A stretch of DNA of 64,000 nt. Source: Caldilineales bacterium (GTDB lineage Bacteria; Chloroflexota; Anaerolineae; J102). A program made the position numbers and the translations under genes. Shown here piece after piece: positions 53,076 through 57,690 of this stretch (positions are counted from its first letter, which is position 1; each line of letters begins with the position of its first letter). The notes under the pieces were generated by a model. It was not told where the DNA came from, did no database searches, and worked only from the letters and a program-made list of their open reading frames with translations. The DNA lies in assembly GCA_024102915.1 (NCBI GenBank), contig JAGFJG010000097.1, positions 1 through 64,000 on the forward strand. Direction: 5' to 3'.

Positions 53076-53750
53076 ATGCTTGTACGTGACGCGATGACCT
53101 CCGATCCGGTAATAGTTCTCGAAACCACGACGCTTCCGGAGATCACCCGCCTTTTTGAAGAAAAACACATTCGCCGCGTGCCCGTCGTGAACGCAAGCGG
53201 CCGACTCGTCGGCATCGTCTCCGACCACGATCTCATGTCAACGATGCCTTCGCCAGCGACAACCCTCAGCCGTTGGGAAATGAATACGCTGCTGGAAAAG
53301 TTGCCAGCCAGGGACTTCATGACCAGCCCCGTGTTTGTCGTTTCACCCAGTTGTCCGATTGAAGAGACCGCCCGTTTTCTGTTGGAAAAGAAAATCGGGG
53401 CGTTGCCGGTACTGGATGGCGATAAACTGGTCGGGATTGTGACGGAAAGCGATATTTTCCAAATGTTCGTCGCTATGCTCAGCGGCGGGGAAAAGCCTGG
53501 TCTGCGGTTTGTTCTGCGGGTCGAGGAAGGTCGGGGCGTTTTGGCTACGCTTGGTTCGATCATCAACGACAATGGCGGCTCCATCATCAGCATCGCCACC
53601 CTGGACGAGGGCGATGGCGTCCACAAAAAACTGATGGTGAAAGAGGAAGGCGCAAACGCTCAGGCGGTGCGCGCTGCCCTGGAAGCCGCTGATTTCGAGA
53701 TTCTGGAGGTGCGTGAACGGCGGCAATGTGCGATCGTAGCCATCAGCTGA
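53076..53750 (+). CDS. CBS-domain pair with C-terminal ACT domain (AcuB-like)
   Basis: Residues 1-65 and 80-135 are two CBS motifs (LVRDAMTSDPVIVLETTTL, then ARDFMTSPVFVVSPS and GDKLVGIVTESDIF), which bind adenine nucleotides. Residues about 145-224 resemble an ACT ligand-binding domain (LRFVLRVEEGRGVLATLGSI). The layout is that of AcuB-type regulators of acetate/acetoin metabolism in Bacillus, whose mechanism is not settled. A ribosome-binding site (CGAGGAA) is present, and a terminator follows. Confidence 0.87.
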   Translation: MLVRDAMTSDPVIVLETTTLPEITRLFEEKHIRRVPVVNASGRLVGIVSDHDLMSTMPSPATTLSRWEMNTLLEKLPARDFMTSPVFVVSPSCPIEETARFLLEKKIGALPVLDGDKLVGIVTESDIFQMFVAMLSGGEKPGLRFVLRVEEGRGVLATLGSIINDNGGSIISIATLDEGDGVHKKLMVKEEGANAQAVRAALEAADFEILEVRERRQCAIVAIS

Positions 53751-53773
53751 TCGCACACGGTATCAGCCTTTTC

Positions 53774-53810
53774 AGACCCGCGTGGGCCGTCCGCGCGGGT
53801 CTTGTTGTTT
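53774..53810 (+). terminator. Terminator of the CBS-ACT gene
   Basis: AGACCCGCG (53774-53782) pairs with CGCGGGTCT (53794-53802) and is followed by TGTTGTTT. The tail merges into the first unit of the 133-base repeat. Confidence 0.75.
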
Positions 53811-54100
53811 CACGGTGAGTTCGCGCGTTTCACGGCAGCCTCAACCTTATCGCCCCTATCCCACACTATCCCACATTATCCCACACGGCCTGAGATTGCC
53901 GCCATCGGATCAAGTATGATCTCATCGTGCACTTCGCCTGTTTCACGGCGAGTACGCGCGTTTCACGACGGCCTCCGATCGTTCGACTATTTCCCACACT
54001 ATCCCACATTATCCCATATGGATTCGCGGATAATCACACAACGTGAGCTGAGATCATCCTGACAAGAAACAGTTTCACAATAATATCGCGCGTTTCACGT
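53807..54100 (-). repeat. 133-base-period tandem repeat with MraZ-box-like triplets
   Basis: Units start at 53807, 53940 and 54073, exactly 133 bases apart; the third is cut short by the mfd 3' end. On the minus strand the first two each contain TGGGA-N5-TGGGA-N5-TGGGA (boxes at 53859-53883 and 53992-54016), matching the known MraZ operator design of three TGGGN direct repeats at 10-base intervals. All three units carry two copies of GTGAAAC 20 bases apart with a CGCGCG between. The first 82 bases of units 1 and 2 agree at about 65 positions. The whole lies between the convergent CBS-ACT and mfd genes and no mraZ or cell-wall gene is adjacent. Confidence 0.8.
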
Positions 54101-54120
54101 TAATATCTGCGCTATCGGCA

Positions 54121-57100
54121 TCAATTTCCAGCGCCAAGAATATCAAGCGCATGCAACAACTTTTGTTGCCACGCCCCTGCGGAATCCGCGACCACCCACA
54201 CCGCATTGCTGCCCACGATAGCGCTATCGCCAAGTTGGAATTGGAGGCGTTCCCGATTGAGACGTGCGACCGATTCGCTGCGCACCACAAGTTGATCATG
54301 ATCCCGACCGATGCTGCTCACCCGGGCGTGTTGGGCCAGAATCTTCACCTTAACCTGATACAGCAGGTGCGCCACCTCCGGCGGGGGCGGGCCAAAGCGA
54401 TCCTTCAATTCCTTGCTCATTTCGTCGATTTCGCCGGAAGTGTTCAGACTGGCAATACGCCGGTAGAGTTGCAATCGCAGGCGTTCATCGCTGACATAGC
54501 TGTTCGGCAGCCCGGCATTCAACGGCAAATCGAGTTGCACAGTGGGGGCCATAGGATCGATCAACATGCCAACATCGAGCGCTCCTTCCGGCAGGCCATT
54601 GCGGTCGCGCAGGTCTTCCACAGCCTGGGCCAGCAATCTCACATAGAGGTCGAAACCGATGGCAGCGATGTGACCATGTTGCCGGGCGCCCAGCAGATCG
54701 CCGGCGCCGCGTATCTCCAGGTCGTGCATGGCGATGCGGAAACCCGCGCCCAGATCACTGGCTTCTTGCACAGCCTCCAACCGTTGCAGCGCTTCCGGCG
54801 ACAATGATTTGTGCTTGTCATAAAGTAAATAGGCATACGCCCGCACCGCACCCCGGCCAACGCGTCCTCGCAATTGATAAAGTTGGGCAAGGCCAAATGT
54901 ATCGGCGCGGTTGATGATAATCGTGTTGGCGTTGGGGATGTCGAGGCCGCTCTCGATGATGGTGGTACAGACCAGCACGTCGAAATCGCCATCGGCGAAG
55001 GATTGCATCGTGCGTTCCAACTCGCGTTCGGGCATTTGGCCGTGCCCGACCCCGATCACCGCCTCTGGCAAGAGCTTGCGCAGGCGATTGGCGATCTGTT
55101 CGATCCCGCGCACCCGGTTGTGCACAAAGAACACCTGGCCGTTGCGATCCAGTTCGCGCAGGATGGCATTGCGCACCAACGTCTCGTCGTAGAATCCGAC
55201 CGTGGTTTGGATGGGCAGGCGTTCTTCCGGCGGCGTATCGATGGTGCTCAAATCGCGCACGCCGGTCAGGCTCATGTACAGGGTGCGGGGAATAGGCGTG
55301 GCGGTGAGGGTGAGCACATCGACCTGGGCGCGCATTTGCTTGATCCGCTCTTTGTGGCGCACGCCAAAGCGTTGTTCCTCATCGACGATCAGCAGGCCCA
55401 GTTGTTTGAACTCGACATCTCTGGACAGCAAACGATGCGTGCCGATCACAACGTCGATGCCGCCCACTTTCAGCTTTTCGATCGCTTCCGTTTGCAATTT
55501 GCGGCTGCGAAAACGCGACAGCATTTCCACTTGCACCGGGAAAGGCTTCATCCGCTCCAGGAAGGTCTGGTAATGCTGTTGGGCTAGCACGGTGGTGGGG
55601 ACGAGCACAGCTACTTGTTTGCTATCCATGATGGCCTTGAACGCGGCGCGCAAAGCCACCTCGGTTTTGCCATATCCCACGTCGCCGCAAATCAGGCGGT
55701 CCATGGGACGGGAGCGCTCCATGTCCTCCTTCACCGCTTCGATCGCGACCAGTTGGTCCTCGGTTTCGACATAAGGGAAAGCTGCCTCGAGTTCATATTG
55801 CCATTCGGTGTCGGGACTGAAGGCATGGCCGGGCAGGGCCTGCCTGCGGGCGTAGAGCGCCAGCAAATCCTCGGCGATCTCCTCCACCGCCTTTCTGGCC
55901 CTGGCCTTGACTAATCCCCAATCGGCAGTGCCTAGGCGATTGAGCTTCGGCTCAGCCTCGCCTGGCCCCACATAGCGCGCCAATCGATCGGCCTGGTGCA
56001 CCGGCACATACAGCTTATCGCTTTGGGCGTACTCCACATGTAGATAATCGCGTTGAACGCCGTCGATATCGATTTTGATCAGCCCCACAAAGCGACCGAT
56101 GCCGTGTTCCATGTGCACTACATAGTCGCCGGGCTGGATGTCCGCAAAGAAGGATTCGGGGGACGCAGCCCTGGGCTGCGGGCTACGCCTGCGCCGGGCT
56201 TTACCCCATCCGAAAATCTCGGCATCGCTCAGCAGGGCCAGACCGCCGTTGCCGTTGTTCATGCGCCAGCCTTCGTCGAACTGGCCCTGGATCAGGCTGA
56301 CGCTGCGGGCTGGCGGCTCGGTCTCGGATGAATCCATCACGGAAATGGGGTTGTCGGCCTCCGCAAAGAGATCGGCCAGTCGGCTCGCCTGCCGTGAAAC
56401 CATCACCACCCGCGCCCCGCCAGAGCGTATCGATTCGACCTGCTCGATCACCCGCTTGAGTTGTCCGCCCCAGCGCGGGCCGGGTTGGAACAGGCGACCC
56501 AGGGCGGAACCGACGCTGGTGCTGTGCCCGTCCAATTTTCCCTGCCCCAACACTACCGGTTGGCGCTGCTCCATCTGTGGACGCAATTCCTCCCAAACCA
56601 TGTGCGGGCGATCAAAACCGGCGGGGAGATCACCGCTTTTGATCAGATCCGCCTGTATTTGCAGGGCCTGGCCTTCCAGGTCGAGCGCCACCGCCGCCAC
56701 ATCAGCCGCCGCATCAATCAACAGCAGCGATTTCGCGGGCAAATAGTCGAGGATTGTGCTGGGCGGAGAGGCGAGGTACGGGATGTAGAATTCGACGCCG
56801 CGAAAGGCTGTCTCTCCGGCGAGTTGATCGGCGTCGCGCTCGAATTCAAACTGAGCGGGCGGGTGGCAGGCGCTGATGTCGAGAGCATTGAGAGCCGCCG
56901 CCGCCTGACTTCCCCGCTCCAGGATCGCCTCACTGCCGGGGCTGACCAGGGTGCGCTCAACGAACGCATCTGGCAACGTGCGCTGGCTGGCCGGATCGAA
57001 GCGCCTGAGGCTGTCGATCTCGTCGCCCCACAATTCGATGCGGATCGGGGTCGTCTCGTTGGGCGGCCAGATGTCGATAATGCCGCCGCGACGGCTGAAT

Positions 57101-57690
57101 GAACCCGGTTCCTCTACCAGCGTCTCGTGGCGATAACCGGCTTTTAGCCAGCGCGCCAATAATTCCTGAAAGTTGATAATGTCGCCGCGGCGCAACGCCC
57201 GCAGATATTTGCGGAAGAGGGCAGGTGGCGAGGTCAATTGCATCAACGCCCGGACCGAACTGACGACAACGGGCGGGGTGGTTGGGCCCATGGGACGATC
57301 CCACTGAGCCAGAGCGGTCAGGGCGGCGAGGCGCGCTTGGCGAGTCTCGCGCGACCAGAAGATGCGCTCGAACGATAACGCGTCGGGTTCGGCGAAAAGG
57401 TGGACGCGCTGCGGTTCGGTCAGCCAGACGCGCAACTGGTCCGCCAGCAGCCGGGCGGTCTCCACACGAGCGGTGACCAGCAGCAAGGGCTTGCCCTCAC
57501 CCGCCAGAGCCGCCGTCACATAGCTGCGCGCCGCGGCCGTGATGCCGAGCGGGTGGGCGGGATGCTCACCCGCAGCCAAATCTTGGGCCAAAGCCTGATA
57601 TGCGCTGTTCTGGTGCAGGATCGGCACAAGCCCGCTCAGGCGCAGGGCGGGGGACAGATCGGGCGGAGCGTTTGTGAGCGTCTCAATCAC
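54121..57690 (-). CDS. mfd: Transcription-repair coupling factor
   Basis: Mfd removes RNA polymerase stalled at DNA damage and recruits UvrA. The 1189-residue protein shows the UvrB-like N-terminal module (to about 400), the RNA-polymerase-interacting region ([21 protein letters not shown]), the helicase motor with [28 protein letters not shown] and [13 protein letters not shown], and the C-terminal TRCF domain. Length is slightly above the usual 1150. Its start lies 18 bases after the pth stop, so it is probably cotranscribed with pth. Confidence 0.97.

Follow-up and report, generated by a model that had tools for sequence, protein, structure and literature searches.

The datA and DARS loci, with their DnaA boxes, are cases in which a few boxes lie at single chromosomal sites without any tie to a gene. 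MraZ is the only known protein that we can name with an operator laid out like the locus described here; its operators comprise four repeats of 7 nt separated by 3 nt, with a GTG motif common to distant bacteria, and the boxes usually lie behind the -10 element (PMC7761207). The window, by which we mean the whole 64-kb stretch of DNA that was analysed, carries on the minus strand of one intergenic region (53751-54120) two three-box arrays in alternation with three GTGAAAC pairs, as read directly from the sequence and its repeats (Table 1). An earlier note on this DNA had called the boxes MraZ-operator-like, and in architecture they are: at least three direct repeats with a GTG core and a 10-bp period (PMC7761207).

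Table 1. Features of the intergenic region and its flanking genes, in window positions.
Feature	Position	Strand	Match
CBS-ACT domain gene, convergent left flank	53076-53750	+	
Intrinsic-terminator-like hairpin of the CBS-ACT gene, bordering the element	53774-53802	+	
GTGAAAC pair 1, 20 bp apart	53807-53833	-	exact
Array 1: three TGTGGGATA boxes, 10-bp period	53857-53885	-	TGTGGGATAATGTGGGATAGTGTGGGATA, 0 mismatches
GTGAAAC pair 2, 20 bp apart	53940-53966	-	exact
Array 2: three boxes, 10-bp period	53990-54018	-	TATGGGATAATGTGGGATAGTGTGGGAAA, 2 mismatches vs array 1
GTGAAAC pair 3, 20 bp apart, without boxes after it	54072-54098	-	exact
mfd (transcription-repair coupling factor), right flank	54121-57690	-	

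Neither the arrays nor the pairs in the window are due to chance. The expected number of box arrays per 64-kb window is 0.00, with zero shuffles giving a match, and GTGAAAC-N13-GTGAAAC occurs in three exact copies against 0.23 expected. The direct read and the shuffles bear out the two arrays of the earlier note, as the exact copies do its GTGAAAC pair in all three units, and the element does lie between two convergent gene ends, those of a CBS-ACT protein and Mfd. The units, given there as exactly 133 bases apart, are regularly spaced, but at 133 and then 132. All boxes fall +112 to +255 past the mfd stop, on the strand of mfd. Between units 1 and 2 the motif positions agree at 40/51 and 27/30, whereas the alignment score of the 52-bp stretch leading from the array to the next pair is inside the shuffle range; motifs some 80-90% alike, followed by an unlike stretch, are what would be expected if selection keeps only the motifs.

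Within its own genome the locus stands alone. A DNA search found no second copy of the whole element there, and a genome-wide search for GTGGGA triples, allowing at most three mismatches, returned the window locus as the sole match, the remainder being background; these results rule out a high-copy repeat and agree with the claim that the array is an orphan. It had also been remarked that no mraZ lies nearby, which is true within the window, but the gene, whose absence had been named as a ground for giving up that reading, is encoded in the same genome on contig C26 (the array is on contig C61). Upstream of it, a -10-like TATACT is followed by GTGGCACAAT GTGGTAGAAA GTGGTGATAA GTGGTA; the promoter reads GTGGCACAATGTGGTAGAAAGTGGTGATAAGTGGTA, with boxes GTGGCA, GTGGTA, GTGGTG and GTGGTA, i.e. 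GTGG(C/T) four times. Period and core are alike in this operator and the array, but the fifth base is different and the flanks have nothing in common, and these differences exclude the proposal that the array is a duplicated fragment of the genome's own mraZ promoter.

Nor is the array confined to this genome as a private duplication. It recurs repeatedly in relatives (DNA search, 61 genomes), and a pattern search found TGTGGGATA arrays in 49 of 199 genomes of the class and in 38 of 399 genomes of the phylum, while the reversed-pattern control matched 1/199 and 0, respectively. Array-bearing genomes usually have one locus each, mostly with 3-5 boxes. Successive boxes are 10 or 11 bp apart in 113/143 cases and 20-22 bp apart in 7, to be read with some caution since pattern-chosen seeds bias the search towards the consensus and a 10-bp spacing. 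A scan of 84,980 species gave 23 matches, all except two titled Chloroflexota or its members, with Chloroflexus, Roseiflexus, Oscillochloris, Herpetosiphonaceae, Caldilineales and Anaerolineae among those named. Matches from Parcubacteria and Moraxella were set aside. The former, a contig labelled Candidatus Parcubacteria (RFKD01000032.1), is probably mis-binned: its array and its Cas10-like gene closely resemble their counterparts in Chloroflexus islandicus, the two genes being homologous; the latter, nine tandem TATCCCACAT repeats adjoining an outer-membrane transporter-like gene in Moraxella oculi (L071:2764-2852), is a pure 10-bp repeat and probably an unrelated slippage tract. No plasmid matches to the array were found, and a literature search on the box string found nothing relevant.

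The neighbours of the array change between lineages. In about ten genomes from at least five families (L016, L019, L020, L021, L022, L023, L028, L030, L047 and L050), whose Mfd identity goes down to 57%, it lies past the mfd stop, within about 480 nt and on the same strand. Other arrays of the class lie behind an AlbA_2/HTH gene (family f2 and others), and one (L022) is flanked by both genes. In Chloroflexia, copies precede a gene start or separate two divergent genes, the neighbours being gatD-like, moxR, class V aminotransferase and ruvX/aroB genes. The array is constant and its partner motif variable: GTGAAAC pairs adjoin it in the window lineage and in two relatives (L018, L020), TTATGTC/GACATAA repeats with GTGATCAC accompany it in genus g5, and in Chloroflexus, Roseiflexus and Oscillochloris GAAC and GTGT are invariant in 20 aligned rows, with TTGACA in most. 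The Chloroflexia element is longer and well conserved, and consists of a palindrome like GAACNNNNGTTC, a putative LexA box of the DinR-type SOS kind, then AAA, YTGACA (most rows), the boxes and GTGTNAA. Boxes also occur in viral contigs. A single one of these has four boxes, behind a promoter-like TTGACG-N18-TACAAT and with the look of an operator; in a set of related contigs (L357-L379) TGTGGGATAATGTGGGATA comes immediately after TTGACA, as would an operator within a promoter spacer. The two-box viral matches come mostly from one phage group with TTGACA-box-box, plus unrelated sequence.

Our leading explanation, to which we give about an even chance on sequence grounds, is that the array is a conserved stand-alone cis site with a chromosome-level role, at which a DNA-binding protein assembles into oligomers along one helix face. 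Such a protein would read TGTGGGATA boxes one helical turn apart, and in the window lineage a second protein, or a second mode of the same one, may read the GTGAAAC pairs two turns apart. The site would then act on the chromosome as a whole: it may hold or titrate the protein, or seed a nucleoprotein complex, and would not switch a flanking promoter. Arrays of the class lie between convergent gene ends, most often behind mfd, which argues that they are not operators of their present neighbours. The array is conserved and phased, usually at a single locus, and independent of what surrounds it, and the two units of the window share their motifs only; from this we infer a bound protein, its titration or assembly role and its possible identity. 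No gene for a binder is linked to the array. Counting against a stand-alone role, the Roseiflexus and Chloroflexus arrays lie ahead of a gene start, where they could control that gene, and the boxes of the viral contig follow a promoter-like sequence as an operator would.

The strongest alternative, tentative but serious, is that the array is an orphan MraZ operator, where MraZ would be bound and titrated off the dcw promoter in the manner of a datA-like reservoir. Besides the shared operator architecture, with its 10-bp period and GTG core (PMC7761207), the distribution of the protein favours this reading: all 49 class genomes with an array have MraZ, which 15/199 genomes lack overall (p 0.012, kinship ignored), and 21/23 named array records have it. 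Moreover, three genomes, from families f16 and f50, have the TGTGGGATA pattern at the promoter and operator of mraZ itself (these matches were left out of the orphans), and the LexA-type GAACNNNNGTTC is common to mraZ upstreams and Chloroflexia arrays. However, the boxes differ in detail. Across the phylum, 63% of mraZ boxes have A just ahead of GTGG, but 94% of array seed boxes have T there, with T at 68% and A at 3% in the outer, less biased boxes, and position 7 is G/A in mraZ boxes and T in arrays. In family f1 the mraZ boxes have shifted to GTGGT or GTGGC while the arrays remained TGTGGGATA, within single genomes. Most MraZ-bearing genomes are without the array, and one genome (G223, a MAG that may be incomplete) combines a four-box array with the lack of a detectable MraZ. 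A binder other than MraZ is, in our view, somewhat likelier than MraZ. Six Chloroflexaceae genomes (G215, G219, G222, G227, G210 and G231) encode two MraZ paralogues, the second with far weaker profile scores.

Exact GAACNNNNGTTC was found in 29/69 mraZ upstreams (L011, L109-L178) against 0.1 expected, mostly at -6 from the start and overlapping the start codon, with the GTTC half coding and the GAAC half upstream. By sequence, these palindromes suggest that the division cluster of Chloroflexota is under SOS control. Near Chloroflexia arrays there are 6 exact copies against 0.42 expected, many of the rows being kin, and TTGACA adjoins the palindrome. Together with the promoter-like sequence ahead of the viral boxes, this is consistent with the array serving an unannotated small RNA, or a small SOS protein, as its operator and promoter, LexA-controlled in Chloroflexia, a reading that we nevertheless regard as unlikely: in Chloroflexia arrays TTGACA is followed by no -10 at a fixed distance and by no conserved structure, and the array strand of the window holds no promoter-like site. 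The small-RNA promoter suggested in the earlier note left no sign either, as the window holds no promoter above chance and the element has neither a structure nor a match in Rfam. Zero consensus pairs in the aligned arrays and the lack of an Rfam match rule out a structured RNA, and the window fold is unremarkable (z = -1.56). The recurrent 7-codon frame does exist in each of the three pairs (VKRANSP, VKRAYSP and VKRAILL, with the TGA stop within the second GTGAAAC), but the peptide is not conserved, being of other length and sequence in L018 and L020, VKRA is a by-product of box spacing, and the element holds no ORF of note.

It is very improbable that the array is an RNA element of the mfd 3' UTR, its UGUGGGAUA repeats read by an RNA-binding protein; mfd-linked arrays do always lie on the mfd strand and close behind its stop, but the Chloroflexia copies precede gene starts or sit between divergent genes, and the box spacing tracks the DNA helix. 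We give almost no credence to the array being part of a replication origin or centromere, although it lies 43 kb from dnaA in the genome of the window, 33 kb from parS, about 2 kb from a DnaA-box cluster and near the skew-minimum plateau in G321, and three Chloroflexus-type genomes have it 133-420 kb from parS, since the distance to parS is 1.49 Mb in G370 and 1.84 Mb in G048, the canonical parS of the present genome is on another contig (C160, two exact), and in G329 (5,258,541 bp) the skew minimum (near 1.965 Mb), the DnaA-box cluster (1,966,770-1,967,051) and parS (1,969,325) lie together near 1.967 Mb with the array 183 kb away (2,150,552). Its proximity to the origin therefore holds for only part of the lineages; for G048 and G370, skew sampling was too noisy for origin placement. 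The G329 array has no DnaA box closer than 1 kb, contig C61 has no palindrome TGTTTCACGTGAAACA, and the window array is not a DnaA-box cluster at a GC-skew minimum; its identity as oriC or parS is largely refuted. The G329 region shared by the DnaA-box cluster, the GC-skew minimum and canonical parS (G329:C1:1966770-1969340) is distinct from dnaA and the start of numbering, at 1.5 kb. In addition to the array, the locus in Herpetosiphon has a second cluster (G321:C1:5568554-5568634) of TATCCCACA boxes with 9-/18-bp periods, adjoining a canonical DnaA box.

A short non-coding site that occurs about once per genome in several major lineages while its neighbours change probably has a chromosome or cell-cycle role. 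If MraZ binds the array, it would be a concrete target for what MraZ does beyond its own operon; if another protein does, a conserved Chloroflexota regulator could be fished with a 30-bp bait. We regard as rather doubtful the wider proposal of a phylum-wide, usually single-copy locus at which a helix-phased regulator array, with LexA in Chloroflexia, would form a self-standing nucleoprotein complex and so couple DNA damage or chromosome state to division, independently of its flanks.

Compared with known systems, the locus resembles several and coincides with none. Each GTGAAAC of the window equals half of TGTTTCACGTGAAACA, the parS palindrome with half-site GTTTCAC, but here the halves are direct repeats and form no palindrome, and canonical parS lies elsewhere in the genome. 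With the DinR-type LexA box the likeness is GAACNNNNGTTC beside Chloroflexia arrays and in mraZ upstreams, whereas no such palindrome stands beside the window array. Like datA, DARS and their DnaA boxes, the array is a single gene-independent locus, and its TTATCCCACA resembles TTATCCACA by letters; its box is, however, one base longer with a 10-bp tandem period, and canonical TTATCCACA clusters are found elsewhere than the array. Finally, although the array is stand-alone, far from mraZ and not behind a -10 box, and its consensus is TGTGGGATA where operators have AAGTGGGGA/AAGTGGTAGA, it is like the MraZ operator in repeating a GTG(G) core directly at least three times, at 10-bp intervals.
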